Notes under the pieces: generated by a model | What the model was told of the DNA's origin: nothing | The model's input: the letters and a program-made list of their open reading frames with translations, nothing else | Database searches by the model: none | Made by a program: the position numbers and the translations under genes | Source: Desulfallas thermosapovorans DSM 6562 | GTDB taxonomy: Bacteria; Bacillota; Desulfotomaculia; Desulfotomaculales; Desulfallaceae | Length of the DNA: 64,000 bases | Direction: 5' to 3' | Assembly (NCBI RefSeq): GCF_008124625.1 | Contig: NZ_VNHM01000009.1 | Location: forward strand, 62,001-126,000 | Shown here: positions 13,102-53,795 of the stretch, one piece after another | Position numbering within the stretch: the first letter of the stretch is position 1 | Layout of the letters: every line of letters starts with the position of its first letter

Positions 13102-14536
13102 TCACTGCCAGTACTTTCTTTCCATACTACGGTATTGTATTGCCTCGGCAATGTGTTCCGCACGTATGTCTTCACTTGCAGACAGATCCGCCAGGGTTCG
13201 GGCTACTTTGATAATTTTGTTATATGATCTGGCGCTCAGACTCAACCGTTCAAAGGCTGTACGGAGCAACCCGGCCCCTTCCTTATCCATCCGGCAATAC
13301 TTCTTCAATTGCGCCGGGCTCATAACGGCATTAACTGCGTCCGGGCCGAAACGGCTATATTGAATTTCTCTGGCCCTTTGCACCCTCCTGCGTATGGTTT
13401 CCGATGCCTCCCCCGGCGGGCTTTGCACCAAATCGTCATATGATAGACGAGGTACATCGATATGCAGGTCTATTCGATCCAGCAACGGTCCCGATAACCG
13501 GTGTAAGTATCTTTGCACCTGTCCGGGGGTACAGTTACATTCCCTTTCGGCGTCGCCCAAAAATCCACACGGGCAGGGATTCATAGAGGCCACCAGCATT
13601 ATTCTGGCGGGATAAGTAACCGAGGCATGAACCCGGGAAATGGTAACTACACCATCTTCCAAAGGCTGGCGCAACGATTCCAGGGCGTCCTTTTTAAATT
13701 CGGCAACCTCGTCAAGAAAAAGTACCCCCAGGTGGGCCAGGCTAATTTCACCCGGCCTGGGGTATTTGCCTCCCCCCACCAGCGCCGAAGTGGATATATT
13801 GTGATGTGGAGAACGAAAAGGGCGTTCCGTTACCAGCGGCTTGCCGGGCTGCAGCAATCCCGCCAGGCTGTACAGATTAGTTACTTCCAAAGCCTCTGCC
13901 AGCGACAATTCCGGCAGTATACCAGGCAACCGGCGGGCCAGCATGGTTTTTCCCGAGCCCGGTGATCCCAGCATCAAAATGTTATGCCCGCCGGCCGCAG
14001 CCACTTCCAGGGCACGCTTCACGGCCAGTTGTCCACGCACCTCTGACATATCCGCTATGACACGGCGACCATTCCAAAATTTATGCGTATCAACAGCATG
14101 CGGTTCTATGGGTTTCTTCCCTTGCAGGTGGCGGATTAAAGAAATTAGATTGGTAGCGGGGTATACGTTGATTCCCTGAATTAATGCGGCCTCGTCGGCA
14201 TTTTCGGCGGGCACGACCACTTGCCCACAGCCATCATAAGGAAGTAGCGAAACCCGGGGTAGTACCCCGTTTATGCCCCGGATAGAACCGTCCAGGGACA
14301 ACTCACCTAAAAAGACATATCCGTCAACCAATCCATAGTCGATTTGCTCCGTAGAGGCCAATATGCCCAGAGATATGGCCAGGTCATAAACCGGGCCCTC
14401 CTTTTTTAGATCCGCCGGGGCAAGATTCACTGTGATACGCTTGGCCGGGAAAACAAATCCGGCGTTTTTAATAGCCGCCCGGACTCTATCTTTGGCCTCC
14501 CGCACCGCAGCATCCGGTAAACCCACGATTTCAAAC
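13102..14536 (-). pseudogene. comM: comM (Mg-chelatase-like AAA+ ATPase), C-terminal 474 codons, split by prophage
   Basis: ComM/YifB is an AAA+ ATPase that, in Gram-negative bacteria, acts as a branch-migration helicase in natural transformation. This part holds the Lon-like S5 region, Walker A GSPGSGKTMLARRLP, Walker B LFLDEVAEF and the C-terminal Mg_chelatase region. It begins abruptly at the codons for VGLPDAAVREAK; the expected first 33 residues are missing here and occur in frame at 53697-53795. The upstream codons at 14537-14565 are phage sequence ending at a TAA. The joined gene would encode 507 residues, the normal length. The split copy has no RBS or proper start. Confidence 0.92.
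14528..14536. other. attL core of the prophage
   Basis: ATTTCAAAC, identical to 53698-53706. The phage-side arm GTTGGCCCGCATTCCAGA (14537-14554) is the inverted partner of TCTGGAATACGGACCGAC at 53679-53696 (15 of 18 positions). Joined as attP, the dyad centre falls on the TC dinucleotide at 14531-14532, a plausible crossover site for a serine integrase. Confidence 0.85.
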
Positions 14537-15119: not shown

Positions 15120-18100
15120 TTATTTTAACCTTTCCTTACCCAAAGCAACTCTGGCCGTATTGGTTGCCAGTTTATTTAATTTGGTTAGCTCGGCCCGTTT
15201 GCGCTGCGGGGACATTGTTTTACTGTTTAAAATATCCCGCTCACGTTTTCTTAAATCGCTCAATCTGTCGGAAACTTTTCTAAGGCGCTTTAACTCGCTC
15301 ATACTAAAGCCTTTCGGTGGCTTTTGCTTTAAGTTCTTTATTGTCTGGTATTGCCTTTCCAACTCGTCCAATCTTTCATAAAAATCATTTTCGCTTTGGG
15401 TATTATTATAGGCGGTCGTCATTAGTGCTTTCAGTCCTGGTATTTCTTCCATGGTTAACGCCGGCCTGGAGGTACGATCAAGCACACCAAACACCTCAGC
15501 CAAACCCTCGCCAAGCTTAATTGTATACATACCCAAACCACCGGTATAGCCGCGGATTGTATTTTCAATCTTGCGCGGTGACATATTTAGCAATTCGCCC
15601 AATTTCTTGGCTGTTTCCGTTGTATATACAGTAAATTGCTCACTGGGCTCTATCTTTTGTTCGCGCTGCGGCACGATGGGGCGTTTCATAAAGAATGAAT
15701 AGTTAGATTGTGCTTCGATAATTGGTAGAAGCGCCGTAGGCAGGTAGCCGGGCAGCATACCTTCCAGGACCGTTTTGCCTAATTCATCAAACGCCTTAGG
15801 GTCCTTGCTATCTATCCACTGTAAAATACGTTCCGGTACGGTACCAAATAAAATACCCATCTCGAAGGGTTTGGGTATCCGCCATAGATGCTCCTTTGTT
15901 GGGATAATCCAGAACATATCCTTTTGCCACTGCGGTAACTCCTGATAGCGTGGGTCATTGCGGTTGTGTAGATACAGCAACACACTTGGCGCGGTAATGG
16001 ACAAAGCAGTCCTAACGCTCGTTTGTAGTGGCTTTTCTATAAACTGCCGTCTTATTTTATCCGCACCCTGAAGCGCGGCATTAAAAAAGGCAATAATTCT
16101 GTTTACTTGTTTTGTATGTGCCCCGTGACGCCCAAAGTCAATAGATACATCCCTGGAGGCGATTGCCGCTTCCAATGGATTAGCTCCACTCTTTACGCCT
16201 TTGCTAAACTCGCCAAGCCTGGTACCCAGCTCGGTAAACTCGGAAAGTGATCTTAACATTTCCAGGTATGTCTTTGGATTCACCACGGTTATTATTTTAT
16301 CCTTGGTTGACCTGGAGTTTTTAAACATCTCACGGATGTTCTTTTGTAGGTAATCCCGATCAATACTCACCAGTGTAGATTGTGCGCCTCCGGAGTTCAT
16401 CCACTGCCAGTATAAGTCATCTTTTTTAACCGCATGGAATACTCCCTTAACTGTATCCCAGCCAGGAATAAAACCATATTTTGAGTTTATAAACGCCGAA
16501 AACCCGTCACGAATAGGGTTTCTGACCATAAAGTCAGGTGACAAAACAGCACCGGCCCGCAACCATGAAGCCGGGTAACTAAGTATTTGCACCACTGTAT
16601 TGGTAGATTCCTTGTCTAATGCTAATGTGGCCCGGTATAAATCAGGGTCAAGTTGATAGTGCTCTGGCTCGCCATTGCGGAATACCTTGAGCACGTTTTC
16701 TTTGCTGAAACGGTTGCCGTCAACCTTTTCCACGAAGCGGCCCAGGCCATCCCCTTGCTCGGCAAGTTCTACAATGGCCCGGCCTACCTTGTTTTTCTCC
16801 GCTATATTGGTGAATAGATAGGTGTTTTTAATAATGGATTCCAGCGGGTCAAGTATATCCCTGGCGGAACCTTTCATCTTTTTAATCGGGTTATTTAAAT
16901 TAGCATACCCGCCCCTGGATAACCACTCGGTAACTACAGCGGGGTCGTCGCTAAATTCCCGGTAAAATGGTATATAGTTTGGATACGCTTCCCGCATAGC
17001 TTTGATGGAGCCTTTCTTCATAACCCCTGCATCAGCCAGCATTTCAAGCAGGTTATCCTGGTACTTAACCAAATCATTAAGGGTATCCTGATATTTTGCC
17101 GGGGAATTATTGATAACTTCCAATGCATCCTTATCTGCAATGCCGGTTTCCTTGCCCTGTGCTTTGACCTCCAAGGAGTGCTTGGCCACGATATAGGCCC
17201 GGAAATCATCTAATTCGTTCTCAACGGTTTTTAGTATTTCGTCTAAAGACTTACCCACTTTTTTGCCGTCTTTATCCATTGGGCCATGTTTTAGCAGTGT
17301 TTCCGCTTTACCCGCCCAACCACGGGCAAGCCAGGCTAATTTATAGGGGTCTTTTTCAATCGGCAGGTCTTTAACACCCACCTGCCTTACAAAGCCTTTT
17401 AGCGGGTGCACTTCATCGAACGTCATTGTGTATAGGCTATCCAGGCTCATTTTGCGGCTGCTTTTTTCGCCTATAGACATACTACCGAGTATCCTTGCTT
17501 TTGCCGGCTGGTTGTACCAGGTGTAAATATCCCTTTGCGCTGTCCTTAGGGCATCGTCAATATCCTTATTAGCTTTAATCTTTTGCTCAAAGCTGGCAAA
17601 GAATTTAGGCGCGGCTTTCTTTGCAGCGGCTTCATCTGTAAGGAATAGCCTCACAAATTCAGCTACGCCCTCTGCTCTTACCTGTTCCGGGGTATAGTTT
17701 GGCAGAGAGGTTTGCTTGCCCAATGCCATTAACTCGCTATCAAAGGCCGAATCCGCTAATTTAAGTTGCTTGTCAAGAAAGTGCCCAACTTCGTGGGATA
17801 TGGCGGGTATGTCATTAGCAATACGGCTCCTGATTACCTCCGGCTTAATTTTAAATATACCCAGCGCCTTTTGTTTGAATCTACCGGTACGAATTGGTAC
17901 GTTAAGTTTTTCGTCAAGGAATTTGATTATATCCCTGCGTTTAACCGTTTTGTCTGTTTTACCCCCGCCAGGCGGTGGTGCGGCTGGGCTTGCCATAGCC
18001 TGCACCCCATCATCAACGGGCGTGGCACTGGCACGCTTTTGTTTTTTCCTAGCCTTGACCTTCGCTGCATCGGTAGCACCTTTAGCCGCTACCTTAGCAC

Positions 18101-20429
18101 CTTTAGGCGCAGCCTTTGTTTTTGTCTCGCCAGCTTTAGGTTCCTTAGTGGTCTTTACTTTATTAACCTTTGCCTTGGCTTTCTCTACTTTGGCAGCCTT
18201 TGCGGTAGCTTTCCTTTGCATCTGCTCATACTCAGCTCTAAGTCCCGGGAAATCAGGAAAGGCATCAATAACCTTGGCTGCTCTCTCCGGGTTATTGGTC
18301 CTTCTAAGGATAACCCGTGCGGCTGCTAGTTCAGCCTTGCGTGGGTTAATCGCTTCCGCCGGCTGCGGTTGCTCCGCTACCCGCGGCGCATTGGCCTTTC
18401 CCCGTTGTGCTTTCTCAATACGCTTAACCAAGCTTTTAAATTGCGGCTTTAGTTCCGGGTAGGTATCCAGTATCTTAGCCGCCCGGTCCAGGTTTTTGGT
18501 TGTATGCAGGATGCCCCGCGCCGCGTTTAATTCAACCACCGGCTTGTATGACTTACTTTGCTGCGGCTTGGCTGCTGGCTTACTATAATATGCTTTTTGT
18601 TTGGCCACAATATATTCCTGTACAGGCGGCAAATCCATGCCGTCAATGGTTTTTGTGCCCCGCGTCAAGTTATCATCAATAATTAGTTCAATCTTTTTGC
18701 TTAGCGCGTTATTTTCAAGTCCTTTATCGTGCACCAACTTGCCAAGCGCTTGCCCTATTTCAACATAACTTGCACCTGTCTCATCTTTTATCCGTTCAAT
18801 TGATTCACTTGTTAAACGTTTAGTACCACTGAAGAATGCTTCACCATTATATTCGGTATAGGTACGCTCGCCCTTAATGGTGTCCATAACCTCGCCCATA
18901 AGCCGGTTAGCTTCCTGCCGTATAAATGGCGCAAGTTCAGGATGTTCGTATGATGCTGCCTTGATGGAACGCCTGCCTACTTCGTCGAAGGTACGGGTAT
19001 CTAATGGAGTATCTGCTGTCTTACCTGTAAGTAATTTTCTTTCGGGCACACCTTTCTGCCAGATGCTTGTATCAACCTTACCTGTGAGCAGTGGCACATT
19101 AACCACATTATCCACCTGTTGCCTTGCTGCCGCCTCTGCTTGTGTCATGGGGAGCTGTGCCGGTTCGGTAAAGCCACGCTGCCGTATTACCCCGCCAGTG
19201 TCGCTGCCCCATTCAGGTAGCCGCAGATCGCTACCAGCAGGAAGCACGAGCCTTTCTTGTATGCCAGGTAAAGCAACTCTTTCTTGCGGACCAGGTAATG
19301 CAGGAGTATTTAATCTGTCAGCCTCGGTAACCCTTACAGGATTACGCAAGTCAAGATTACGGATAGTATTAAGCTGCTCAGCTTGATTGGCCGCCCTGGC
19401 CGCCCTGGCCAGCTTCGGCATCCTTGCAACGCCATGTGTGGCCGCACCCAGCAGAGCATTTACGGCTGCCGCTACACCCATATCCTGCAGTGACATGGGA
19501 CGGTTGTTAACTAAAGCGGCCGCACCTTCATAGCCCACAGCACCACCAGCAAGCCCTGCTGCCGTATTTAGTATTGGCCTGGATTTTACGGCCTTGGGCA
19601 GCACCTTTTCGGTCGCCTTTGTACCGAGGTTAAACAGATTGGCACCTACGTTTACAGTACCGGCGGGATTGGCGGCAAAGCCCATTAATGAACCCCAAAG
19701 GTCGGCAGTAATATCACCGGCTGTACTGCCGGTGCTTACTATATCCGGTCTATCTTGTAAGGTCATAATCTCGCTGCCGGTCTGCCCGGCTCGTTCAAAC
19801 CAGGACAGGTCACTAAGAGCGCGGATAGGCGCGGTTACGGTTTCCGCTATTTTGGTGAAGGTTGGGTGTTTGGCCGCAAATTCCGGATTAACGTTATCCA
19901 CAGTCGAAACGTATTTAGACTTGGTAGCTGTAGGTGTAGGTGCTGCCTTTGGTGGCGTATATGGCTTTGCGTACTGCTCCTGGAACTGCTGCAGGTAACT
20001 TGTCTTTGGTCGCTGGGTGCCTCTTGATACCGGCTTAATAGTCGATAAGTCGCCCAGGCTATTTATAATTGAGGACACATAGTTCCTGGTCTCGGCAAAC
20101 GGTGGTATGCCGCCGTATTTCTCCACGTTTCCAGGCCCGGCATTATAGGCGGCCAAAGCAAGGTCAACGCGGCCAAACTTGTCCAACTGTTGGCGTAGGT
20201 ATTTGGCCCCGCCCTCAAGGTTCTGCTCCGGGTCCCACGGGTCGGTGACGCCGAGGCTTTTAGCCGTACCGGGCATGAGCTGGGTTAAACCCATTGCACC
20301 GGCGGGGCTTTTGGCCTTTGGGTTAAAGTTGGATTCTTTCTTTACCAGCTCACGTAAAAGCTTTGGCGGCAGACCGTATTTATTCGCTTTTTCATAGATG
20401 AGCAAATCAAGGGATGCCATATTAACCAC
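15120..20429 (-). CDS. Giant virion polyvalent protein: lytic transglycosylase, HExxH zincin, LPD38-like region
   Basis: A 1769-residue protein at the end of the late operon. Residues about 10-130 form an SLT lytic transglycosylase domain (KKESNF with the catalytic Glu near 31, GLTQLMPGTA, AAYNAGPGNV). Residues about 730-800 are a Lys/Ala-rich linker. Near residue 878, ISHEVGHF gives a zinc-protease HExxH motif. The region from about 1000 resembles the large-polyvalent-protein associated domain LPD38. Such proteins travel inside the capsid and enter the host with the DNA; the transglycosylase would open the peptidoglycan. The start ATG is at 20429 or four codons in; it overlaps the 20422 gene. 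Confidence 0.8.
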   Translation of the reverse strand: MVNMASLDLLIYEKANKYGLPPKLLRELVKKESNFNPKAKSPAGAMGLTQLMPGTAKSLGVTDPWDPEQNLEGGAKYLRQQLDKFGRVDLALAAYNAGPGNVEKYGGIPPFAETRNYVSSIINSLGDLSTIKPVSRGTQRPKTSYLQQFQEQYAKPYTPPKAAPTPTATKSKYVSTVDNVNPEFAAKHPTFTKIAETVTAPIRALSDLSWFERAGQTGSEIMTLQDRPDIVSTGSTAGDITADLWGSLMGFAANPAGTVNVGANLFNLGTKATEKVLPKAVKSRPILNTAAGLAGGAVGYEGAAALVNNRPMSLQDMGVAAAVNALLGAATHGVARMPKLARAARAANQAEQLNTIRNLDLRNPVRVTEADRLNTPALPGPQERVALPGIQERLVLPAGSDLRLPEWGSDTGGVIRQRGFTEPAQLPMTQAEAAARQQVDNVVNVPLLTGKVDTSIWQKGVPERKLLTGKTADTPLDTRTFDEVGRRSIKAASYEHPELAPFIRQEANRLMGEVMDTIKGERTYTEYNGEAFFSGTKRLTSESIERIKDETGASYVEIGQALGKLVHDKGLENNALSKKIELIIDDNLTRGTKTIDGMDLPPVQEYIVAKQKAYYSKPAAKPQQSKSYKPVVELNAARGILHTTKNLDRAAKILDTYPELKPQFKSLVKRIEKAQRGKANAPRVAEQPQPAEAINPRKAELAAARVILRRTNNPERAAKVIDAFPDFPGLRAEYEQMQRKATAKAAKVEKAKAKVNKVKTTKEPKAGETKTKAAPKGAKVAAKGATDAAKVKARKKQKRASATPVDDGVQAMASPAAPPPGGGKTDKTVKRRDIIKFLDEKLNVPIRTGRFKQKALGIFKIKPEVIRSRIANDIPAISHEVGHFLDKQLKLADSAFDSELMALGKQTSLPNYTPEQVRAEGVAEFVRLFLTDEAAAKKAAPKFFASFEQKIKANKDIDDALRTAQRDIYTWYNQPAKARILGSMSIGEKSSRKMSLDSLYTMTFDEVHPLKGFVRQVGVKDLPIEKDPYKLAWLARGWAGKAETLLKHGPMDKDGKKVGKSLDEILKTVENELDDFRAYIVAKHSLEVKAQGKETGIADKDALEVINNSPAKYQDTLNDLVKYQDNLLEMLADAGVMKKGSIKAMREAYPNYIPFYREFSDDPAVVTEWLSRGGYANLNNPIKKMKGSARDILDPLESIIKNTYLFTNIAEKNKVGRAIVELAEQGDGLGRFVEKVDGNRFSKENVLKVFRNGEPEHYQLDPDLYRATLALDKESTNTVVQILSYPASWLRAGAVLSPDFMVRNPIRDGFSAFINSKYGFIPGWDTVKGVFHAVKKDDLYWQWMNSGGAQSTLVSIDRDYLQKNIREMFKNSRSTKDKIITVVNPKTYLEMLRSLSEFTELGTRLGEFSKGVKSGANPLEAAIASRDVSIDFGRHGAHTKQVNRIIAFFNAALQGADKIRRQFIEKPLQTSVRTALSITAPSVLLYLHNRNDPRYQELPQWQKDMFWIIPTKEHLWRIPKPFEMGILFGTVPERILQWIDSKDPKAFDELGKTVLEGMLPGYLPTALLPIIEAQSNYSFFMKRPIVPQREQKIEPSEQFTVYTTETAKKLGELLNMSPRKIENTIRGYTGGLGMYTIKLGEGLAEVFGVLDRTSRPALTMEEIPGLKALMTTAYNNTQSENDFYERLDELERQYQTIKNLKQKPPKGFSMSELKRLRKVSDRLSDLRKRERDILNSKTMSPQRKRAELTKLNKLATNTARVALGKERLK

Positions 20430-21054
20430 CTATCATATCAAAGTATCCACGTATGGGATCGCCTTCCACCTGATACTTCCTTACCCAGGGTTCTTCGCTG
20501 TATTCAGCATTTTTGGCTTCTTCCAGTAGCCTGTCGTAGGTGCTCTTACCCAATAGCCTTATAATGTCTGTGGCGTTTCTCTCCAAGCTGGCTTTATAAT
20601 CTTTGGGGCTGGCATAGTATTCACGTAATCCGTACAGGTCGGCCTCATAATCGTTTTTGGTGTAGTTGGCAGTATCTTTACCGCTTGATTCGTAAGCCTT
20701 AAACGCATCAATAGCCACTCTTTGAGTATCCAAACCCAACTGTGCGTCCTGGTAAGCTTTCTGCTGTTCAAGTTCCTGTTTCGCTAAAGTGGGAGTACCG
20801 GCTGGAAACGGTATATAAACCGGGTTCTTCGCCCGGTGCGACCGTATTGCATTTAGAACGCTGCCTAAGTTCTGCTGCCACGTTTTATTGGGCACCTCAT
20901 CGCCGTAAGACACTCGCTGGTTGTCTGGCACCACATACACCGGAGGGTTAGTGCGCTGCTTTGCGTTTACAGCCGAATTTACCAGCTCATTTTGAGGTTG
21001 CCTTGCATTTGTCAGTAAGCCTATCAACTCGTTAATATTGGCCACAGTAGCCAC
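20422..21054 (-). CDS. Virion-associated protein (probable internal or ejection protein)
   Basis: A 210-residue soluble protein, no family recognised. It lies between two candidate internal proteins, which suggests a structural or ejection role. Residues about 47-95 contain QRVSYGDEVP followed by IRSHRAKNPVYIPFPAGTPTL. The same motif occurs in the secreted prophage protein at 50984-51445. A weaker match follows (DYKASLE here, DFKSSIE there). The C-terminal half is charged and helical. Confidence 0.6.
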   Translation of the reverse strand: MATVANINELIGLLTNARQPQNELVNSAVNAKQRTNPPVYVVPDNQRVSYGDEVPNKTWQQNLGSVLNAIRSHRAKNPVYIPFPAGTPTLAKQELEQQKAYQDAQLGLDTQRVAIDAFKAYESSGKDTANYTKNDYEADLYGLREYYASPKDYKASLERNATDIIRLLGKSTYDRLLEEAKNAEYSEEPWVRKYQVEGDPIRGYFDMIGG

Positions 21055-21061
21055 CTCCTAT

Positions 21062-22291
21062 TTAAAACAAACCAGCAAGCGCACTTTCGGGGATATACCA
21101 GGCCCCGTTCTGGTTATACCCACCCATATTCTGCAACTGACTGGATGAATACCTTTTCCCGTTGATAATAACTTCCTTGGTTGCCGGATCCCAGTCAATA
21201 CTGGCCCCTCGCTGTGCAGCGTAACTACGAATTGGCACCGCTGCTGCAGCAGAACTCGTCTGAGGTAAAGTAGCTTCCGGGACCTGTCCCATAACCTGAG
21301 TCCAATCCAGTGGCTGTGCCTGCCTCTGCGCCTCGGTTAACCCAAAATAAGGCAATAGATTAAGACTATACTGCTGGCCAAACTGCTGTGCCTGGGTAGC
21401 CATTTGCATAAGGTTTCTGGTTGCGTCCATAACCTGCTGCCAGTTGCCGACAGCCTGGGCCTGGGCAAGGTTCCGTAGTTCAGCCAACCGGTTAGCCTCT
21501 AAAGTGCCCAACCTTTCGGCAAGCTGTTCTCTTTTCTCCCCGGCCTGTTGTTCAGTAAGCGCCAGTGCCTGGGCAATAGCATTTAACGCCGCCGTTTTCT
21601 TGGCTTGCTCAGTGGTGGCCTGCTCCATGATCGGAGCCTGCTGTTTATTGGTAAGCCATTCCACGGCCCCCGACCGGCCCCCGCCACGGGCGATAGCACT
21701 TTCCAGTGCCCGGGACGCCGCTTCCTGCAACATCCGGTTCACCGTGTCCTCAAAGCCGGCATAATTCGCTTCAATCTCCTGGCGTTGACTAGACGCCGCA
21801 GTCCTGGCCTGTTCAAGTGACCGGTCGATAGCTTGCAACAGCGGATTAATCTGCAAATTCGCCCACTGGCTGGCCTGCTGGGCCAGCTCCTGCTCAGACG
21901 GTGGTTCGTACTTCGGGAATTGGGACAAAGCGTCCCGGTACATCTGCTCATAGGGCATCAGGTACTCTTTTAGCGGGCCTGTTAGTTGGCCCAACACATC
22001 ATCCATGCTTGTGGGCTTGTTATATACCGGTGCCGGGGAAGTGTTGTATTTGGGCGTTGAATTACTTGGCTTAGGGTAGCTTGGTTGCGATGAAGGTGTG
22101 CTACCCCCTACCCAGCCCTTGGATGTGCTCCATCCCGTTCCTGATGCAGTGCCCGATTTTAACTTTTTAGCCGCTGACAATGCCTGCTGACCGTAAGGGT
22201 CTTGTTCAAGATACTTATAGTTGCTGGCCGGGACAAACTGACCGTTCTTGTAAATATTGCCCTTGCTGTCCACAGAATAACTATGAGCCAT
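21062..22291 (-). CDS. Virion internal/ejection-type protein, coiled coil
   Basis: About 409 residues from the ATG at 22291, which has AGGTGGTG upstream; the open frame continues 22 codons further without an RBS. The N-terminal 110 residues are Ser/Pro/Lys-rich and flexible. Residues about 130-330 are a long Gln/Ala/Glu-rich coiled coil. The C-terminus is compact (VIINGKRYSSSQLQNMGGY). This composition is typical of podovirus internal-core proteins, but there is no specific family match. Confidence 0.6.
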   Translation of the reverse strand: MAHSYSVDSKGNIYKNGQFVPASNYKYLEQDPYGQQALSAAKKLKSGTASGTGWSTSKGWVGGSTPSSQPSYPKPSNSTPKYNTSPAPVYNKPTSMDDVLGQLTGPLKEYLMPYEQMYRDALSQFPKYEPPSEQELAQQASQWANLQINPLLQAIDRSLEQARTAASSQRQEIEANYAGFEDTVNRMLQEAASRALESAIARGGGRSGAVEWLTNKQQAPIMEQATTEQAKKTAALNAIAQALALTEQQAGEKREQLAERLGTLEANRLAELRNLAQAQAVGNWQQVMDATRNLMQMATQAQQFGQQYSLNLLPYFGLTEAQRQAQPLDWTQVMGQVPEATLPQTSSAAAAVPIRSYAAQRGASIDWDPATKEVIINGKRYSSSQLQNMGGYNQNGAWYIPESALAGLF

Positions 22292-22342
22292 GGTATTTAA
22301 ACACCACCTGTGGTAAAATTTGTTCATAAAGGAGGGATGTCT

Positions 22343-23284
22343 ATGAAAATATGGCAAAGAAAACTTGCGTTGGCGTTGGTTTTGGTAATGGTGTTCATGT
22401 GTGTTAGTCCGGCAGTTGCTGTTATACCAAAAGATGCACTGGATGAAGTCACAAAAGGTGGTAAAAAGAGCACCGACTTAATTACCCACAGCATTATTGA
22501 CCTGGTTTACGTTTCTAGCGGCTCGGTGACAACTTACACATATAAAGGCGCTAACGAAGAATTAACCATTAACAAATTTACCGTTACCCCGCAAAGTCCC
22601 ACATCGGCAAGCCAAAAAATAACACCTTTTGTTTTTGAGTTAACCAATCAATATAGACCGGAAACGGATATAGCCGTCACAGCAGTAGGGCCAGACGACA
22701 CAGTACACACTTATACCTACGGGAAATATAAAGATAATGCCATGTTGGCTATTATCACCGGATTACCCGATTGTCTAGGTAACCCACCTGTCCATCTTGA
22801 TAAAAGATCGAGTTCATGGACAAGTAAGTATTCCCCGGAAGAAATGACCAAAGAACCTGTTGTTTCGTTTGTGGTGACCACTTTTGCATTAGATAGTACC
22901 ACATACACTGTCACTAGCGATTCCGGCACAGTTGAAACTAAAACTATGGATGTGGAACCAATCGTGCAGGATGAAAGAACTTTCGTTCCGATACGTTACC
23001 TCTCATACGCCCTGGGTGCGACTGAAGATGATGTCGCCTGGGATAATGTCGCCAAAACAGCCAGTATAGAAATCGGCGAAATCACCGAAACATTAACAGT
23101 CGGATCAACTACCTTACTGGTTAACAACAATCCCGTTGAAATGGACACCGCCCCGTTCATCGAGAACGGTCGGGTATTTTTACCGGCCCGGTGGATAGCT
23201 GAACCTTTTGGTGCGGAAGTCGAATGGAACACCGAAGGTCAGCAAACCATTATAAAGATTCCTTTGCTACCGGATCAGGAATAA
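22343..23284 (+). CDS. Exported protein with two copper-amine-oxidase-N-like (stalk) domains
   Basis: A 313-residue protein with an N-terminal signal peptide (KIWQRKLALALVLVMVFM, likely cleaved near AVA). The middle is a beta-rich region of no known family. Residues about 205-310 carry two stalk repeats (ERTFVPIRYLSYALGA and NGRVFLPARWIAEPFGAEV), a fold common in clostridial surface proteins. The start at 22343 has GGAGGG 6 nt upstream. It is transcribed against the late operon, between tail-fibre and internal-protein genes, and its 3' end overlaps the convergent 23250 gene by 35 nt. It is probably a lysogenic-conversion gene; function unknown. Confidence 0.65.
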   Translation: MKIWQRKLALALVLVMVFMCVSPAVAVIPKDALDEVTKGGKKSTDLITHSIIDLVYVSSGSVTTYTYKGANEELTINKFTVTPQSPTSASQKITPFVFELTNQYRPETDIAVTAVGPDDTVHTYTYGKYKDNAMLAIITGLPDCLGNPPVHLDKRSSSWTSKYSPEEMTKEPVVSFVVTTFALDSTTYTVTSDSGTVETKTMDVEPIVQDERTFVPIRYLSYALGATEDDVAWDNVAKTASIEIGEITETLTVGSTTLLVNNNPVEMDTAPFIENGRVFLPARWIAEPFGAEVEWNTEGQQTIIKIPLLPDQE

Positions 23285-23513
23285 CAGGAGCAGGGTCAAT
23301 TACTGGCTCTGCTTTTTCATCCAGAGCATCAAGCATTGCCTTAATTTCTTCTGCCCTGCGCTTTAAAGATTTTACCTGCCTTACTATGCTTGCCAGCTCT
23401 ATTTTAAGAGATTGTTTTATCTCATTTACTCTGTTGGTATCGGTAACTTGTATTTCTTCTTTTCTTATAAATACACCTTTTTCGGCATTAAACTCAATCC
23501 GTTTACCCATCAT
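23250..23513 (-). CDS. Small coiled-coil phage protein
   Basis: An 87-residue protein, mostly one charged helix (IVRQVKSLKRRAEEIKAML) with a Pro-rich tail. It overlaps the fibre gene start by 4 nt, so it is translated with the late operon. It may be a fibre chaperone or small virion protein; no family is recognised. Confidence 0.5.
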   Translation of the reverse strand: MMGKRIEFNAEKGVFIRKEEIQVTDTNRVNEIKQSLKIELASIVRQVKSLKRRAEEIKAMLDALDEKAEPVIDPAPVIPDPVAKESL

Positions 23514-26500: not shown

Positions 26501-27817
26501 CTCGGTAAGTTCAGGTAATGTATTAGAAGACTGCAATTCATACGGTTTATCAAAATCCCACCAAACGTAAGTACCGTTTGTGTATCCATCAGCAATGTCA
26601 TACATCATGCCCTGGTATCCAATGGATAAATTCTCCCACTGGATATATCCCGACTGTGGAGTGTTATCATAAACAACATACTTACCTTCTTTATCCCTAA
26701 GGGTCAAATCAAATGACAGTTTGCAAGTGGTATAACCATCTTTAGGTAGTGGTTGATTACTGACATAGGCATCGGCGATTTCTTCGTCAGTTAGAGCACG
26801 GTTAGAGATACGGAGGTCGTCGATCAAGCTTGAATAAACACTATTACTATCAAACCTACCAATTTGTGCTATTGAAGGCAATGATGATGGTAGGTTTGTA
26901 GTCACTTCAATCAATTTGACGGCATCAACATAAACCTTAGCCACAGTACCGTCCCAAGAAAGCGCCCAATAGTGCCATCCAGTTACGTCAGGTATACTTG
27001 ATGATGAGTATGCGGTCCGTTGGGTGCCATCAAACCACGACAACAAAGCACGGCTATTAGCCCCAATTGAGACATAAAATTTCGGCCAAGCAGAAAATAA
27101 TACATGGTTTCGATTAAACTCAAAACTCTTTTTACAAAAAAATTCAACCGTCCATGGCCCGGAATCAGTTAACACCTCTGCCGTAGGAATGGTCAATACT
27201 TCTGGGTCGCGGGTGCCTGGCGTGAAGGAGGTGGCGTATGATTTTAGCTCCACCTGAGGAAGTGCAAATTCACATTCCCCGGGTGCGTTATCTATCCATA
27301 CAAAAACACTTCCACCACCAGACAATGTATTAGGAGAACCATCATGTGTAGTTGTAATGCGAACCCATTCACCTAATGGCAAGTCAGACAGGTTAAAAAA
27401 CTTTTGACTAGTAATAAGCCCTCCGCCACTGCGTTGGGCATCAACATACATACATGCAATTCTACCTGTTGAAGATAACGCCCGCACATAAATCGAGTGG
27501 TTATAAACAGAACCAGTCATTCCAGAGAGAAAACCTTTTTTCCCGTATCGTCCCGTGCCTGTGTCTGTTTTCTTTAATCTTAATACTTTACCTCTTAATT
27601 CATCCTGTCGAAAATACATCTCACCGATAGATTCGCCATCAGTATAATTAACCCAACTTTCAAAATCTACCGTTGTTAACCTATTCGTCGTCCCTTCCTC
27701 CACCATTATGGCCTGACCAAACTTGCCATTCTCAAACCGGGGAACGTTGGGGCGAACCAGTGTACCGTCTGAAAGATAAGCATCTGAGTCTCTGGTAAAA
27801 CTTGCTGTCACGGGCAT
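23510..27817 (-). CDS. Tail fibre/spike with duplicated LamG-type lectin modules
   Basis: A 1435-residue protein. The first module begins TASFTRDSDAYLSDGT and holds a concanavalin/LamG-like domain (about residues 215-350, GWHYWALSWDGTVAKVYVDA). A run of short hydrophobic repeats follows (AIAANAITGNKI, SSDKIAAGAVGAEAI; about 470-550). A second module begins TATFTRNSVAYKQDGT and carries a second lectin-like region (ending near residue 1110). The C-terminus is unique and acidic. Such proteins form the host-binding fibres. The two modules are clear duplicates, separated by the repeat linker. Confidence 0.8.
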   Translation of the reverse strand: MPVTASFTRDSDAYLSDGTLVRPNVPRFENGKFGQAIMVEEGTTNRLTTVDFESWVNYTDGESIGEMYFRQDELRGKVLRLKKTDTGTGRYGKKGFLSGMTGSVYNHSIYVRALSSTGRIACMYVDAQRSGGGLITSQKFFNLSDLPLGEWVRITTTHDGSPNTLSGGGSVFVWIDNAPGECEFALPQVELKSYATSFTPGTRDPEVLTIPTAEVLTDSGPWTVEFFCKKSFEFNRNHVLFSAWPKFYVSIGANSRALLSWFDGTQRTAYSSSSIPDVTGWHYWALSWDGTVAKVYVDAVKLIEVTTNLPSSLPSIAQIGRFDSNSVYSSLIDDLRISNRALTDEEIADAYVSNQPLPKDGYTTCKLSFDLTLRDKEGKYVVYDNTPQSGYIQWENLSIGYQGMMYDIADGYTNGTYVWWDFDKPYELQSSNTLPELTEDDVLVLLNKNGTHMTVPTASVVDGGLIVPESIMADAIAANAITGNKILAGSISSDKIAAGAVGAEAIAANAIAAQHIMAGAITSDHISANGIIGNKIIGGEILAGLVNIVGKDESGNSVVQIGHYEGLGPQTATFTRNSVAYKQDGTQVAADQPRYEYTALPYPVWQDTFDTNQLSQYTSGGDSPATWAVSGGVLTGTGGSQATLIKNDLLLQDCEIVLTSDQAQDGGIIARYQDNNNYYLLALYDDSGVAPTQNIRLYKRVGGTYTSLAYADVTWPRGTSKQIKFTLHGSRLEAYFDGVKVISVTDTTFTGGGVGLRHHGSTGSDRYLDFSVYYVQQGVMVEESTSNLVKTNAGATADFSDATGWSLNPNTSVSGGKLRLQSPDGSSVAIAQCVMTNVPANTAVSFSVRARYTDESDPGANGSLYVDFSGTGYDSNDQQLTIPSTQICTTFATFKRDGMNTGTPPSSFNFRIFSFSKRPIEVDFVQVELLPMATSFVNGIRYGEKLNVPTENVFNPGAWAMDMIYTPTCSWGMANTPHLWRIDLGYPDLANNYALYVMTDGRLQARLRSENVTYFITDSEVLVPGKTYHITITGDGSTFYLMKNGQLIGTSSYVPPAGTMPTEMCIGYFTGGHGQADGIIHDVRFSNILRTLAEHQAEYNSGLPLSVDDATTYLMSCDGHLQPSIRKFGIASKSGEIEGSIIRGSQIFGTRFQSGDEASSSYVQIGSGNSPIEVIRNNKPALNIWTSQNIGITGGTGGIVEFYDANDGSRKGYIAAYKDTGPYGLGDGLVISAEDNNTNHKDLILIGDRITLGVKNFGMFTRVYDYLEVDGDADIENLYVTGEKNAVQFTDNYGRRILSARESPDIRFEIEDIAQLENGECKVEIDPIFLECVVPHSDDYRWLVHATPYMSSMPGLYVAEIGDTYLVFRDLAGSNGQFFWRLSALRRGFENNWLEPYSDYNLDLLESNWEDEYMQLIEIEIDETVLTSGWEDELL

Positions 27818-27831
27818 TTTTTTTCACCACA

Positions 27832-28782
27832 CTAATAAAGCATATGTTGTGCAATGTTTAGGTTGCTTTCTCCAATAGCACCTGCCCCTATTTTAGAGCC
27901 GGTTATAGCACCATCCTTTATGGCTCCTGCTTCAACAACGCCGGTTCCGAAAATAGAACTGTTATTTATAGCACCAGCCGCAATCTTACCAGCCTTAACA
28001 GCCCCATCAGCTATCTTGGCGTCCGTTACGGAATTACTAGCCAAAGCTGTTGAATTTACAACGCCGGAGCCAAACAGCGAAGCCGCATTTATAGCCCCTG
28101 AGGCAATCTTACCTGCTATAACCGCCCCGCTGGACAACTGTGCACTACCCACAGTACCATTCATCAATGCTGACCCAGAAATCAATTTTCCGGGTGCCAA
28201 TAATACGTTCGGATGGCCACCCTCATTTATACAAACTAATACATCGTCCGCATCTAATTCCGGTTGTGTATCACTGGTTTTAAATTGTGTAGGAGTGTCA
28301 TTATCCCAATAAATGTACTTCTTATCTGTATTACCATCTTGAATGGTGTGGTCTTGACCTTTGTAAACAATATGACACCCAGCCCAAGAAACACTTCCAG
28401 CACTTGGTGAGTTAGCTGTAAAAGAATAGCCGTCCAGTATGTGAGTTGCTAAATTCAAATCCCTTGAACCCACCCTGTTTACCGGCTTACCCTCGGCACG
28501 GTCAAGCACTTCATACAACAGATTAATTCTGTAATCAACGTCATGTAGTAAGGCTTTTAACCTGGAATCCAAAGCTTTTTCCACAGCCTTGTCGATACTG
28601 TTATCTTCAGAAATTTCGGGTTTAACATCAATACATTCCTGTTGGCCTGTATCAGAAGTATCTAGCATGGAATTAGACACTTCCTCAACCATCCGGCTAA
28701 CCAGCTTTACTGCACCGTTTAACATTTTTTCGCGTTCACGCATAATCAAAGCCTGAGTGCTTTGTGGTAACATTATGTTCAT
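27832..28782 (-). CDS. Tail fibre protein with AxxI-type repeats
   Basis: A 316-residue protein. After a helical N-terminus (about 1-110) and a beta region, residues about 205-310 consist of repeats such as GAVIAGKIASGAINAASLFGSG, which form beta-helical or collagen-like shafts in tail fibres. It ends in NIAQHMLY, similar to the STHRLY end of the next protein. It lies between the large fibre and a shorter fibre-like protein, consistent with a fibre shaft or adaptor. Confidence 0.7.
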   Translation of the reverse strand: MNIMLPQSTQALIMREREKMLNGAVKLVSRMVEEVSNSMLDTSDTGQQECIDVKPEISEDNSIDKAVEKALDSRLKALLHDVDYRINLLYEVLDRAEGKPVNRVGSRDLNLATHILDGYSFTANSPSAGSVSWAGCHIVYKGQDHTIQDGNTDKKYIYWDNDTPTQFKTSDTQPELDADDVLVCINEGGHPNVLLAPGKLISGSALMNGTVGSAQLSSGAVIAGKIASGAINAASLFGSGVVNSTALASNSVTDAKIADGAVKAGKIAAGAINNSSIFGTGVVEAGAIKDGAITGSKIGAGAIGESNLNIAQHMLY

Positions 28783-28795
28783 TATCCATAACCCC

Positions 28796-29221
28796 CTAAT
28801 ACAGTCTATGAGTAGACCAGTTTGCTTTTTGATCTAAGACGGCCTCAGCCGCCAACTTCATATTGGTAATTGCCCCATCAGCAATGTGAGGGGTTTTAAT
28901 GGCCCCGACAGCAATTTTTGCTTCGGTAACCGCCTGTTCAGCCAACTGCAATTCGTGCTGGAGGCCAACCAATTTATCACTCAGCTTACTTGTATCAAAA
29001 GTGCCATCCTCGTTAATACTACCTGACCTGTCCCACACATTGGCACGGGAAGGCAGATCCTTTACCGCCCCGCCGGTGGCTTGCTTGGCGTAAAGCTGTA
29101 ACTGGCTTAACATCCGTTCCACTTCAATAAAACAACGCTGCACTGCCAAAGCGAAATCCTCGGGCCGGGTGTGGTCAAAAAACCTCACCGGTAACTGAAA
29201 AACATCCTGCTCACGTGCCAT
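28796..29221 (-). CDS. Short tail fibre/adaptor protein
   Basis: A 141-residue protein that shares the repeat style of the 27832 protein (ITEAKIAVGAIKTPHIADGAITN) in its C-terminal half and a similar C-terminal end. The N-terminal half is probably the tail attachment part. It is the first fibre-like gene after the tail hub candidate. Confidence 0.65.
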   Translation of the reverse strand: MAREQDVFQLPVRFFDHTRPEDFALAVQRCFIEVERMLSQLQLYAKQATGGAVKDLPSRANVWDRSGSINEDGTFDTSKLSDKLVGLQHELQLAEQAVTEAKIAVGAIKTPHIADGAITNMKLAAEAVLDQKANWSTHRLY

Positions 29222-49784: not shown

Positions 49785-49886
49785 ATTACCTTTTGGTAAT
49801 AGAATAACAGGAAGTATTACCTTTTGTCAACATCAATTTACCATTTGGCAATACATTTTTTTGATATCATCTTGCCAATTGGCAAT
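49785..49886. promoter_or_regulatory. Operator array of the CI/Cro switch
   Basis: Four related sites of the form TTRCC-N4-GGYAA: 49785-49800 (ATTACC TTTT GGTAAT, perfect), 49816-49831 (weaker right half), 49837-49852 (TTTACC ATTT GGCAAT) and 49871-49886 (TTGCC AATT GGCAA, perfect). Centre spacings are 31, 21 and 34 bp, close to two and three helical turns, so repressors would sit on one DNA face. Confidence 0.75.
49801..49830 (-). promoter_or_regulatory. Lytic (leftward) early promoter
   Basis: TTGACA at 49825-49830, 18-nt spacer, TATTCT at 49801-49806. It is overlapped by the 49816 operator and followed immediately by the 49785 operator. Confidence 0.6.
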
Positions 49887-49899
49887 ACTGCGTTACAAT
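49872..49899 (+). promoter_or_regulatory. Repressor promoter
   Basis: TTGCCA, 16-nt spacer, TACAAT. The -35 box is inside the 49871 operator, so the repressor (or Cro) would control it. Confidence 0.55.
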
Positions 49900-49919
49900 T
49901 GATACAGGCGGTGATTGCC

Positions 49920-50816
49920 ATGGATAACAATTTTGGAGAAACACTTAGGGAGTTAAGAGAAAGCAAGGGATTTACAGTTAATCAACTGGCAATAAAGTCA
50001 GGGGTTAGCGCTGCTCATATATCTAGACTTGAAAATGAACGCAGGTCTGTACCAAAGCCTAAAACTATAAAAAAGTTAGCCAAGGCATTAGGTAATCTTG
50101 ATAAATTAATGGAAGCCGCAGGTCATTTAATTAATAAGAAACAAGTAGATATAATTGACGCCCTTGCCAATGAAGACACTGAGGTTCTCGCTGGTGGTCA
50201 GTTATTAACCCCGGACCAGCGACTTGCTATTGCTCGCGCCCTGGATAACCCCTCTATGTTCAAGAAAAACACCATCCCCATCCTTGGCAAAGTCCCAGCC
50301 GGCATACCCATCATGGCCATTGACGAATGGGACGGTGAACTGGAGATCCCCTCCGACATTGAAGCTGACTTCGCCCTGCAAGTTAGAGGCGACAGCATGA
50401 TTGGGGCCGGTATCCATGACGGAGATTACGCCATCTGCCGGGAGGCATACGGGGCAAACTCGGGCGATATTGTCGTTGCATTGGAAGATGTAGGCCCAGA
50501 GTATTCGCGAGGAACCCTTAAATATTACATACAGGAAAATGGCCGGGATGTGCTCAGGGCAGCAAACCCCAGCTATGAGGATATCCCCCTGGGTGGTAAC
50601 CACCGGATTACCGGCATAATGATTGGCCTAATTAGGATGGGCTCTACGCCGCTTAGTTATTACAGGGAGTACATAGCGATACGCGATTATCACTTGAAGA
50701 AGTGGAATGACGTGATTGAAGAGTTGGCCAAGTATGGCATGGAGCCTTCCGCGGTAAAACAGATTTTGGTGCCGCAGTTGGAGTATCTGAATAGGATTGC
50801 TAAAGGTGAGAAATAA
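49920..50816 (+). CDS. CI/LexA-type prophage repressor with S24 autoprotease domain
   Basis: 298 residues from ATG 49920. Residues 5-65 form an XRE HTH (TLRELRESKGFTVNQLAIKSGVSAAHISRLE). The C-terminal domain is S24: the VPAGIP cleavage site (near residue 128), Ser in GDSMIGAGI, and a Lys in GTLKYY. So it should self-cleave with RecA during the SOS response, inducing the prophage. Loops around residue 200 are longer than in LexA. The gene is divergent from the Cro-like gene. Confidence 0.85.
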   Translation: MDNNFGETLRELRESKGFTVNQLAIKSGVSAAHISRLENERRSVPKPKTIKKLAKALGNLDKLMEAAGHLINKKQVDIIDALANEDTEVLAGGQLLTPDQRLAIARALDNPSMFKKNTIPILGKVPAGIPIMAIDEWDGELEIPSDIEADFALQVRGDSMIGAGIHDGDYAICREAYGANSGDIVVALEDVGPEYSRGTLKYYIQENGRDVLRAANPSYEDIPLGGNHRITGIMIGLIRMGSTPLSYYREYIAIRDYHLKKWNDVIEELAKYGMEPSAVKQILVPQLEYLNRIAKGEK

Positions 50817-50983
50817 CCCGCACCGGAAGGTGGCGGGTTTTGTGATAAATATACGGTTCGACAAGAACCAACAAAAAAATAGGGCTATAATGATGTGTCG
50901 GTCCAGGAAATTGCGGCAGCGTATGCTATGAAATAAACCTATTGTTAAACATTTTAAATTCACATAGGAGAGGGGGTGAAAAG

Positions 50984-51445
50984 GTGAAAAAATGTACGCT
51001 AGTTTTAGTAATAACATTCTTGATTATCTTTGGCGCTTGCTCATCCGCATATGCAGATCCTGGTTATGATAAGGTTCAAGCACAGCGGGTACCTTACGGA
51101 GACGAAGTGCCCAAATTAAGCGACATTATCAATTTAATACAGTCACACCGAGCAAATAATCCTTTATATATTCCTTACCCCGCAGGAACACCCACACTTG
51201 ATGCACGTATAAAGCAGCTAAAAACATTAATACTTATGCATCATAATGGAAATTTACCTGATAATGATTTTAAATCCAGCATAGAGACGATAAAATATTC
51301 ACCCAATAGTATCTTGACTACCAATGGGCAGTACTTCCAAACCATTGCAAATTTATTACAAACCGGTGCCATAAATGATGAACAAGCATTTGATGTGTTG
51401 CAAAAGCTTGAATTAGTAATAATACTTGAAAAGGTATCTCAATAA
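50984..51445 (+). CDS. Secreted prophage protein sharing a motif with the 20422 virion protein
   Basis: 153 residues from GTG 50984 (GAGAGGGGG upstream). A signal peptide (KKCTLVLVITFLIIFGACSS) ends in AYA before Asp, a good signal peptidase I site; a lipobox reading (FGAC) is poor. The mature start holds QRVPYGDEVP, then SHRANNPLYIPYPAGTPTL, matching the 20422 protein in order and wording, and DFKSSIE against DYKASLE. The rest is helical and unassigned. It lies between repressor and integrase on the lysogenic strand. I infer export from the lysogen and interference with incoming phage, unproven. Confidence 0.65.
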   Translation: MKKCTLVLVITFLIIFGACSSAYADPGYDKVQAQRVPYGDEVPKLSDIINLIQSHRANNPLYIPYPAGTPTLDARIKQLKTLILMHHNGNLPDNDFKSSIETIKYSPNSILTTNGQYFQTIANLLQTGAINDEQAFDVLQKLELVIILEKVSQ

Positions 51446-51491: not shown

Positions 51492-52061
51492 ATGAAGCGC
51501 TGCAAGTTATTTGTTACTACAGTGGCCCTTTTGTTTCTTTTATCTATTAGTCAGTTTGCTATCGCCCACCCAGGACGCACTGATGCAAATGGCGGGCACT
51601 ATTGACGGACAAACTGCGAGAGGTGGGGCCTCTCATACGGGGAGTATCATTACCACAATGGCGGTAGTAGCTCAAGTAGTAGCAGTAGGACAAGCTCAAC
51701 ATACACACCCGCACCGTCCCTGCCACCGGTACAGGTCTATGTAAACAGTCAAAGGCTCCCTGAAGAAGCCACAATAGATGATGGCAGGGTTTTAGTGCCG
51801 CTGCGGTCGATTATGGAAGCTTTGGGGGCTAGCGTTCAATGGGACGCTGGGACGGAAACCATCACAGCGCAAAAACAAGGCCTGGTTATATCCTTAAAAA
51901 TCAGCAGCAAAACTGGTTACTGCAATAACAAACCAGTATCGCTTGATACACCAGCAAAAATAAAGAACGGTAGGACAATGGTTCCCGCAAGGTTTGTTTC
52001 TGAATCTTTTGGTTCAACGGTTCAATGGGACAACAATTCCAGAACAGTGTATATAAAGTAA
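51492..52061 (+). CDS. Exported YHYH-motif/stalk-domain protein with in-frame UGA at codon 38
   Basis: The frame from ATG 51492 is open to TAA 52061 apart from one TGA at 51603-51605. Codons 1-25 are a signal peptide ending AIA. Mature HPGRTDANGGHY, then UGA, then RTNCERWGLSYGEYHYHNG, is the YHYH motif; from memory of the family a Cys is usual at the UGA position. A Ser-rich linker and two stalk repeats (VLVPLRSIMEALGASV, TMVPARFVSESFGSTV) follow. A hairpin lies 12 nt after the UGA. It is either a selenoprotein or a gene with a nonsense mutation; if the latter, only a 37-residue peptide would be made. Confidence 0.55.
51618..51634 (+). promoter_or_regulatory. SECIS-like hairpin after the UGA
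   Basis: GAGAGG, loop TGGGG, CCTCTC: a 6-bp GC-rich stem in a 17-nt unit, starting 12 nt after the UGA, with G residues in the loop. The E. coli fdhF element has a 17-nt upper stem-loop 11 nt after its UGA, from memory. It is within coding sequence, so it could be chance. Confidence 0.35.
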
Positions 52062-52080: not shown

Positions 52081-52167
52081 CCCGGCCCTCTGGCCGGTAT
52101 ATTTTCATCCTCACAATAAAAAGGTCCCCCTGTTTCACTTTTATTATCCATAACAGGAGTGAAAAAG

Positions 52168-53664
52168 GTGACAATCAACGAAGCCATCATGTATTTGCGA
52201 AAAAGTAGAGACGATATAGAACGCGAACAGCGCACCGGAGAGGATGTACTACAATTACACCGTACCCGCTTATCTGAGTTTCTCACCGGCCGGGGTATTA
52301 AGTGGGCGGAACGTGCCGAAGTGAAAAGCGGCGATACCATAAAGGCCCGGCCAGTGTTTCAAAAGGTGTTAAAAGAGGATATACCCTCCGGCCAATACCA
52401 AGCCATCTGTGTAACCGAAATATCCCGCCTGGGCCGGGGCGACATGGAGGATGCCGGTCGCATCTACAAGGCCCTCATTAGGTACAACATATGGGTAATT
52501 ACCCCCCACAAAGACTATAACCCACAGAACCCTGCCGACCTCCGGCAAATCCGGTTTGAACTGTTTCTCTCCCGGGAAGAATACGAACTAATTAAAGAAC
52601 GATTATGGTCGGCGAGGGACCAGCGGGCAAAGCAAGGATTTGCTGCAAACTACATTGTTACCCTTGGTTATGAGCAATCCCGGGGGAAGGTTTTTGTCGT
52701 ACCGGAGGAAGCGGAGCTAGTCAGAGAAATATTTGAGATGCGGGCAGACAATATGTCCTACCAGGAGATAGCTGATGTACTGAACCAGCGCGGGCTAATC
52801 ACTAAGCGGGGAACGCAATATTATAGTTCAACTATCCAAAAGATAATTAAGAACCAGCGCTATATAGGTAAATCAAAATGGCGTGGGCAATACTATGACA
52901 GCCAGGCCCCGGCTATTGTGCCCTTGGAGCTATGGAACCAGGTACACCGGGAGGTAAATCCCAATAGGACGGTACGAAAAAAACTATCCAGGCTGGATAA
53001 TCCTTACCTAGTTGAGCTCTACTGCCACGATTGCGGCAGCCGGATGTACGGCGAAAGGGCTACTATAGACAGGGTATTAGCCAATGGCCAGTATGTGCGG
53101 TATAACGAATACGGAATATATGTTTGTGTCGGTAGGAAAAACAAGGAGAATAAATGCGTCCACCGGGTAAGGGCGGAGCTTGTACATGATGCTGTAAGGC
53201 AGGAGCTGTCTAAGATGGCATACGACAAGGCGATAATCAAGGAGCTTATCCGTGATAGGCAGCAGCGGCTTGAATTTGATACCGGCGGTCTCCAGGATAA
53301 GATAGACAGTAAAAACAATCAGATTAAACAAAAAGAAGCCTTCCTGTTAAAGTGCAAAGAGGATTATAAAAAGGGGGAGCTGGCAGCAGCTCTGTACTCT
53401 GAGTTTTACGAAGATACTATTAAAGAAATTGATGTACTAAAAGCGGAGATAAAAACAATCAAGCGAAAATTGGAAAAGGCTACTATTAAGGTTGAAAGCC
53501 CGGAATTGGTCCTGCAGAAACTGAGGGCCACCCTGGACGATTGGGAACACATACCGAACAGGGATAAGAAGATAACTATAGCTTCGTTTCTCCCCAGGGT
53601 TGAAATATCTAAAAACGGGGTGCTGTTCATCGAAAGAATAATACCCCCCATTTTTGGGGGGTAA
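52168..53664 (+). CDS. int: Large serine integrase
   Basis: 498 residues from GTG 52168 (GGAG 8 nt upstream). An N-terminal resolvase domain has the nucleophile in YLRKSR and the ISRLGRG motif. A recombinase domain follows, then a zinc ribbon (CHDCG ... CVGRKNKENKC) and a coiled coil (about 385-440) that controls synapsis. It sits immediately beside attR, and would recombine attP with attB inside comM. An excision factor (RDF) is not recognised by sequence. Confidence 0.93.
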   Translation: MTINEAIMYLRKSRDDIEREQRTGEDVLQLHRTRLSEFLTGRGIKWAERAEVKSGDTIKARPVFQKVLKEDIPSGQYQAICVTEISRLGRGDMEDAGRIYKALIRYNIWVITPHKDYNPQNPADLRQIRFELFLSREEYELIKERLWSARDQRAKQGFAANYIVTLGYEQSRGKVFVVPEEAELVREIFEMRADNMSYQEIADVLNQRGLITKRGTQYYSSTIQKIIKNQRYIGKSKWRGQYYDSQAPAIVPLELWNQVHREVNPNRTVRKKLSRLDNPYLVELYCHDCGSRMYGERATIDRVLANGQYVRYNEYGIYVCVGRKNKENKCVHRVRAELVHDAVRQELSKMAYDKAIIKELIRDRQQRLEFDTGGLQDKIDSKNNQIKQKEAFLLKCKEDYKKGELAAALYSEFYEDTIKEIDVLKAEIKTIKRKLEKATIKVESPELVLQKLRATLDDWEHIPNRDKKITIASFLPRVEISKNGVLFIERIIPPIFGG

Positions 53665-53666
53665 AG

Positions 53667-53795
53667 TTAACTACTGTGTCTGGAATACGGACCGACAATT
53701 TCAAACCCGGGTAAACCCCTGGAAACATCTACTTCGACCCGTACAATATAAGCTTCCAACCCGTTTAAAGCCAGACTTTTCACAATGGTTAGCAT
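53667..53795 (-). pseudogene. comM: comM N-terminal fragment, 42-codon frame
   Basis: ATG 53795 with GGAGG 10 nt upstream. The reading MLTIVKSLALNGLEAYIVRV, then EVDVSRGLPGFEIVG, is the ComM start. It passes attR at the FEI codons, runs through eight phage codons (PYSRHSS and a preceding Gly) and stops at TAA 53667-53669. Joined to 14536 it restores the complete gene. Confidence 0.9.
53698..53706. other. attR core of the prophage
   Basis: ATTTCAAAC, as at attL. The phage-side arm is 53679-53696. The bacterial arm, AAACCCGGGTAAACC, and its attL counterpart GGTAAACCCACGATT are imperfect inverted repeats (10 of 15), giving a plausible attB. Confidence 0.85.

Follow-up and report, generated by a model that had tools for sequence, protein, structure and literature searches.

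A secreted protein encoded beside the repressor of a Desulfallas thermosapovorans prophage shares a segment with a probable ejection-cassette protein of the same phage and may act as an exported decoy

The window, by which we mean the whole stretch of 64,000 nucleotides analysed here, carries a prophage of about 39.2 kb within comM/yifB, a gene of the Mg-chelatase family. Both parts of the split comM lie on the minus strand, the C-terminal part from 13102 to about 14540 and the N-terminal part near 53.69-53.8 kb. The prophage genes include an SU10-type capsid protein, a portal and a terminase, and the phage looks short-tailed, judging from its SU10-type capsid and portal. The two genes considered in this work both belong to this prophage, and one of them, 50984-51445, is placed in the lysogeny module between the repressor and the integrase. 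The features of the prophage ends and of the lysogeny region are as follows:

14528..14536, no strand: prophage end on the comM C-terminal side, with the 9-bp core ATTTCAAAC
49824..50816, plus strand: repressor with HTH and S24 peptidase domains
50886..50891, plus strand: TATAAT, a possible but weak -10 box of the moron, with no good -35 box and not among the promoter-scan output
50984..51445, plus strand: gene of the secreted protein, an AT-rich moron of 153 aa with a GTG start at 50984
50984..51058, plus strand: predicted signal peptide, residues 1-25, assigned by eye and from a predicted N-terminal helix
51059..51199, plus strand: shared segment in the secreted protein, residues 26-72 (DPGYDKVQAQRVPYGDEVPKLSDIINLIQSHRANNPLYIPYPAGTPTL), beginning at the predicted mature N-terminus
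51200..51442, plus strand: C-terminal bundle of four helices, residues 73-153, which is conserved in the G001 homologue and unrelated to the late protein
51492..52061, plus strand: secreted protein with YHYH and Cu_amine_oxidN1 domains, second gene of a likely two-gene unit, with one in-frame TGA
52082..52097, plus strand: terminator-like hairpin after 50984-51445 and 51492-52061
52159..53664, plus strand: serine integrase, which integrates the prophage in comM/yifB
53698..53706, no strand: prophage end on the comM N-terminal side, with the same 9-bp core ATTTCAAAC

The base composition of 50984-51445 (GC 36%, GC3 29%) was compared with that of the other prophage genes measured, which have 44-56% GC. 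The position of the gene and its AT-rich composition suggest that it is expressed in the lysogen, and its location is that of known exclusion genes such as ltp in phage TP-J34. Inspection by eye revealed that the signal peptide ends with AYA followed by DP, a signal peptidase I-type site, while the only lipobox candidate (FGAC) is a weak one that lacks the usual residue at -3; the secreted homologue in a sister species of the same genus (G001) has no lipobox. The signal region is the sole clear hydrophobic stretch, and the remainder was modelled as a soluble helical bundle. In the AlphaFold2 prediction, made from two input sequences, residues 17-43 and 58-64 form a low-confidence arm (below 50) interrupted by a helix at 45-58, and the four main helices make up the C-terminal bundle at 72-152, with block confidence mostly 69-90. 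The fold search retrieved nothing beyond generic four-helix bundles (best Foldseek E 1.1); the best Z, 8.3, belonged to a designed protein and lies within the background for helical bundles. Searches of Pfam, PHROGs, NCBIfam and PADLOC gave no useful match for either the secreted or the late protein, nor did a PDB sequence search with the secreted protein. The Lipoprotein_Ltp repeat domain was not detected in the secreted protein by Pfam at E up to 0.1 or by PADLOC.

The adjacent gene, 51492-52061, is interrupted by a single in-frame TGA at about 51603, between HPGRTDANGGHY and RTNCERWGLSYGEYHYH, and could be a selenoprotein gene or carry a one-base nonsense mutation. The G109 homologue has Cys (TGT) at the place of the TGA, and a tRNA-Sec match above the cut-off was found in the genome studied here. 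A hairpin, GAGAGG-UGGGG-CCUCUC, lies 12 nt past the TGA, with a stability not above that of shuffled sequences.

The second gene of the pair, 20422-21054, is located in the late operon together with the following features:

15120..20429, minus strand: 1769-aa protein with an SLT transglycosylase and an LPD38 domain, a probable ejected protein and candidate partner of the segment
20422..21054, minus strand: late protein of 210 aa, a probable ejection-cassette protein from gene position and a distant homologue
20785..20946, minus strand: shared segment in the late protein, residues 37-90, from the alignment to the secreted protein
21062..22357, minus strand: late protein of 431 aa in the same cassette, also a candidate partner of the segment

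The order of the late operon suggests a three-protein ejection cassette, since the 210-aa gene follows the 431-aa gene and overlaps the start of the SLT-LPD38 gene. The large product, which the sequence-only reading had listed simply as a 1769-residue protein, was confirmed as an SLT transglycosylase with LPD38. A place next to a transglycosylase ejection protein within a cassette, as expected of podovirus ejection proteins, was also found for 20422-21054. In the structure model of the 210-aa protein, residues 1-127 scored below 50 and residues 128-208 formed a confident helical domain. This domain is common to a 489-aa protein of a related prophage in G034 (L037:8493-9962; 36% identity over 72 residues), which directly precedes a 1226-aa protein, and in another related prophage (G048) a 475-aa protein stands at the matching position, before an LPD38 protein. 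From gene position and a distant homologue, the 210-aa protein is a probable virion protein. Its N-terminal part is absent from both relatives. An internal repeat within the 210-aa protein is suggestive only, as 58 of 2000 shuffles were as good.

Several minor features were noted in the same region. The 431-aa protein (21062-22357, minus strand) ends with a stretch, residues 365-400, that weakly resembles Cu_amine_oxidN1, with an E of 0.004 that does not reach the Pfam cut-off; this is the domain type of the secreted gene beside 50984-51445. A 324-aa secreted stalk-domain (Cu_amine_oxidN1) gene at 22310-23284 lies on the plus strand, opposite to the late operon within which it is found, and adjoins the ejection cassette. 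At 23510-29221 (minus strand), related stretches occur among three successive tail-fibre-like proteins of 1435, 316 and 141 aa. Besides an open LPD38 gene that is 58% identical to its counterpart in the window, the 1769-aa gene, G048 contains another one that is disrupted by several stop codons (G048:C1:2849777-2851382).

The sequence-only reading had proposed that the exported protein resembles this late protein in two motifs occurring in the same order, and both genes, their coordinates and the two motifs were found as described. Alignment of the secreted and 210-aa proteins over PGYDKVQAQRVPYGDEVP------KLSDIINLIQSHRANNPLYIPYPAGTPTL gave 30 identical residues out of 48 with a single six-residue gap. 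The pair had a local score of 147, whereas 1000 shuffles averaged 30.7 (sd 5.1) and never exceeded 60. When all window ORFs were compared with each other by BLASTP, the pair had an E of 1e-14. A search of the whole 2.96-Mb genome with the secreted protein returned only the protein itself and the product of 20422-21054 (E 1.2e-11). The alignment and BLASTP results showed that the segment is common to an exported protein of the lysogeny region and a late ejection-cassette protein of one prophage. A third similarity, DFKSSIE against DYKASLE, did not hold up: after the segment the two proteins scored 26 where shuffles averaged 24.2, and 643 of the 2000 were as good, so that this resemblance is attributed to chance and the C-terminal halves beyond the segment are regarded as unrelated. 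In both structure models the segment lies in a low-confidence N-terminal arm adjoining a helical core, and because the two cores are unrelated, the segment may be regarded as a portable module.

The segment might have been a common motif of unrelated proteins, and this was rejected within the collections searched, as no credible match was obtained in 398 genomes of the phylum, in phage records or in IMG/VR except for the own provirus. A model of the segment retrieved from the 398 genomes only the present genome and two weak partial matches at E 0.005; the 50,697 phage records gave one 31-residue match (E 0.9), and IMG/VR only the provirus of this genome. The expectation that other prophages hold the same pair was not borne out in the 398 phylum genomes, 84,980 genome records (searched by peptide pattern only), IMG/VR and the 50,697 phage records, and the related prophages of G048 and G034 have no similar secreted/late pair. 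The sole secreted homologue found was that of G001, with 157 aa and 43% overall identity; two further candidates for the family are probably chance matches between signal peptides. The gene of the G001 homologue, AT-rich and equipped with its own terminator, forms a self-contained cassette at the end of a mobile element of roughly 12 kb (L005:7490-17990, G001:C29), which has tyrosine integrase, primase, helicase and RusA-like genes and in which no structural genes were found. This element is possibly a phage satellite, and a search for a virion protein paired with the G001 segment found none.

Comparison of the two segment copies at the codon level revealed strong constraint. For the 32 codons of the two conserved blocks, dN between the secreted and late genes was 0.13-0.16; the dS estimate was 1.5 with YN00 and saturated with NG86, and it was 1.0-2.0 when all 47 aligned codons of the segment were taken. 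Different codons are used at 18 of the 26 identical residues, and therefore the copies were not made recently and the protein segment is strongly constrained. Judging from these substitution patterns, the copies split long ago and were kept alike by purifying selection in both genes, whereas recent duplication or gene conversion is rejected by the saturation of synonymous sites.

The relationships of the segment differ from those of the rest of the secreted protein. The secreted protein and its G001 homologue are 56% identical in the bundle (45/81) and only 34% identical in the segment (15/44), while against the late protein of its own phage the secreted segment reaches 62% identity; the G001 segment is 31% identical to that of the window's late protein. 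All three segment comparisons were better than every one of 2000 shuffles. Fisher tests on the identity counts gave p values of 0.025 and 0.007, from small counts and with residues treated as independent. These identities show a segment that is general in the secreted family and yet here resembles the resident virion protein more closely than it does the secreted orthologue, which argues that it tracks the protein of the resident phage. The proposal that secreted copies generally lie nearest to the virion copy of the phage that encodes them has one pair and one outgroup in its favour.

The best explanation of these data, which we nevertheless hold tentatively and at somewhat less than an even chance, is that 50984-51445 is an exclusion moron exporting a decoy, which would vie with the incoming ejection protein for its binding partner. 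In the sequence, the signal peptide leads directly into a copy of a segment of the probable ejection protein, with an unrelated helical bundle behind it. Both copies of the segment would bind the same partner, and the virion protein would need this contact while the ejection proteins pass out of the capsid and through the envelope. Stationed on the outer side of the lysogen's membrane, the secreted copy would occupy the partner, and DNA delivery by the same or related phages would be stopped. The partner might be one of the other incoming ejection proteins, with the products of 1769 aa (transglycosylase/LPD38) and 431 aa as candidates, or it might belong to the host envelope. Of the two, an incoming phage protein is somewhat favoured, since a partner differing from phage to phage would suit a segment that tracks the protein of its own phage.

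In favour of the decoy, similarity far above chance in the only such pair of the genome was considered together with the strong constraint, the incongruence of the segment, its start at the mature N-terminus, the probable portable arm and the location between repressor and integrase, as well as the known parallels Ltp, SieA and pIII, which lend plausibility to the individual steps. Against it, the collections searched yielded a single pair, the G001 homologue belongs to a small element free of structural genes and no virion counterpart to it was found, and the prophages of G048 and G034 are without such a pair. In addition, the secreted protein might diffuse away, as no lipid anchor is certain, and the phage must avoid harm to its own release or infection.

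The main rival, which we consider unlikely, is that both proteins bind the same host surface component, such as cell wall, S-layer or an envelope protein, with no exclusion involved. The secreted protein would then serve lysogenic conversion or act as a surface protein of other benefit, together with the neighbouring YHYH/stalk protein, and the late protein would use the module to hold or cross the wall. The conservation of both segment copies is consistent with this, as is the presence in the same unit of 51492-52061, whose secreted stalk-domain product is of a common surface type. The weak presence of the segment in the G001 homologue also points this way, since an element without structural genes indicates that the segment can exist with no virion partner in the same element. 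However, a common host ligand within one genus should keep all three segments alike, and it is left unexplained why the segment follows the copy of the resident phage and not the secreted orthologue. Capture of a domain, in which the segment was exchanged once by recombination between the moron and the late gene and each copy was then kept separately, appears distinctly unlikely. Phage genes are mosaic, and the lack of the late protein's N-terminal part in the G034 and G048 relatives agrees with such an exchange, but the protein segment has remained alike despite saturation at synonymous sites, and two independent uses would be expected to diverge more than the secreted orthologues did. Finally, a weapon of a satellite or rival element against phages with matching ejection proteins, protecting its own host as a side effect, would suit the stand-alone AT-rich cassette of G001, with its own terminator in a 12-kb integrase-primase-helicase element free of structural genes, but is very improbable given that the closest match in the window is the resident phage and that a search for a victim phage matching the G001 segment gave none.

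The proposed decoy can be compared with several known systems. According to the sections of the study of Ltp from Streptococcus phage TP-J34 drawn on here (PMC3952083), Ltp is a product of the lysogeny module made in the prophage state that acts outside the membrane, binds the tape measure protein of long-tailed phages via a charged repeat domain, and is still active in a secreted form without the lipid anchor. Like Ltp, the product of 50984-51445 is a small exported protein with a helical domain, encoded by a temperate phage of a Gram-positive host in the lysogeny module beside the repressor; unlike Ltp, it has no Ltp match in Pfam and its lipobox is doubtful, and those sections (PMC3952083) report no copy of a protein of its own phage for Ltp. 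SieA blocks the entry of P22 DNA, and escape mutations map to the ejection proteins gp16 and gp20 (PMC10883804). The block proposed here would likewise be prophage-expressed and aimed at DNA entry through the ejection proteins of a short-tailed phage, with the difference that the protein is secreted, having a hydrophobic signal region only and a soluble bundle in the model, and is not an inner membrane protein. SieA targets ejection proteins, and here the copied segment itself would derive from a probable ejection protein. Tab, the tail assembly blocker of a Pseudomonas prophage, targets a structural protein, the tape measure (PMC10884400), and is similar as a prophage-encoded defence against a structural protein, if our proposal is correct; however, it acts on assembly inside the cell, is not exported and is not described as a copy (PMC10884400).

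The sequence-only reading had regarded copying of the phage's own protein as a different principle, and this can be maintained in part. In filamentous phages, pIII displayed in a cell already infected engages TolA, the entry receptor, and thereby prevents superinfection (PMC11082904), and it is a precedent for a virion protein that blocks superinfection by the same principle of competition as proposed here. With pIII, however, the virion protein itself acts, whereas here a dedicated second gene of a tailed phage would carry one segment fused to another domain. A separate, dedicated secreted copy of a segment in a tailed prophage appears to be new.

It is possible, though on balance doubtful, that temperate tailed phages more generally can encode, in a dedicated gene, a secreted version of the segment with which their own ejection protein binds; lysogens would use it to pre-empt or poison the entry machine of superinfecting kin, and it would evolve in concert with the resident virion protein. 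Were this so, screening exported prophage proteins for short stretches also present in virion proteins of the same phage could reveal exclusion genes, a search that would need no known family, and the segment shared here is short enough for testing as a peptide. As a further observation, the IMG/VR provirus record of this genome (L004, IMGVR_UViG_2599185175_000001) ends, by coordinate arithmetic, at window position 50816, the last base of the repressor, and therefore the secreted gene and the integrase were cut from the record; viral collections may miss similar lysogeny genes located between repressor and integrase.
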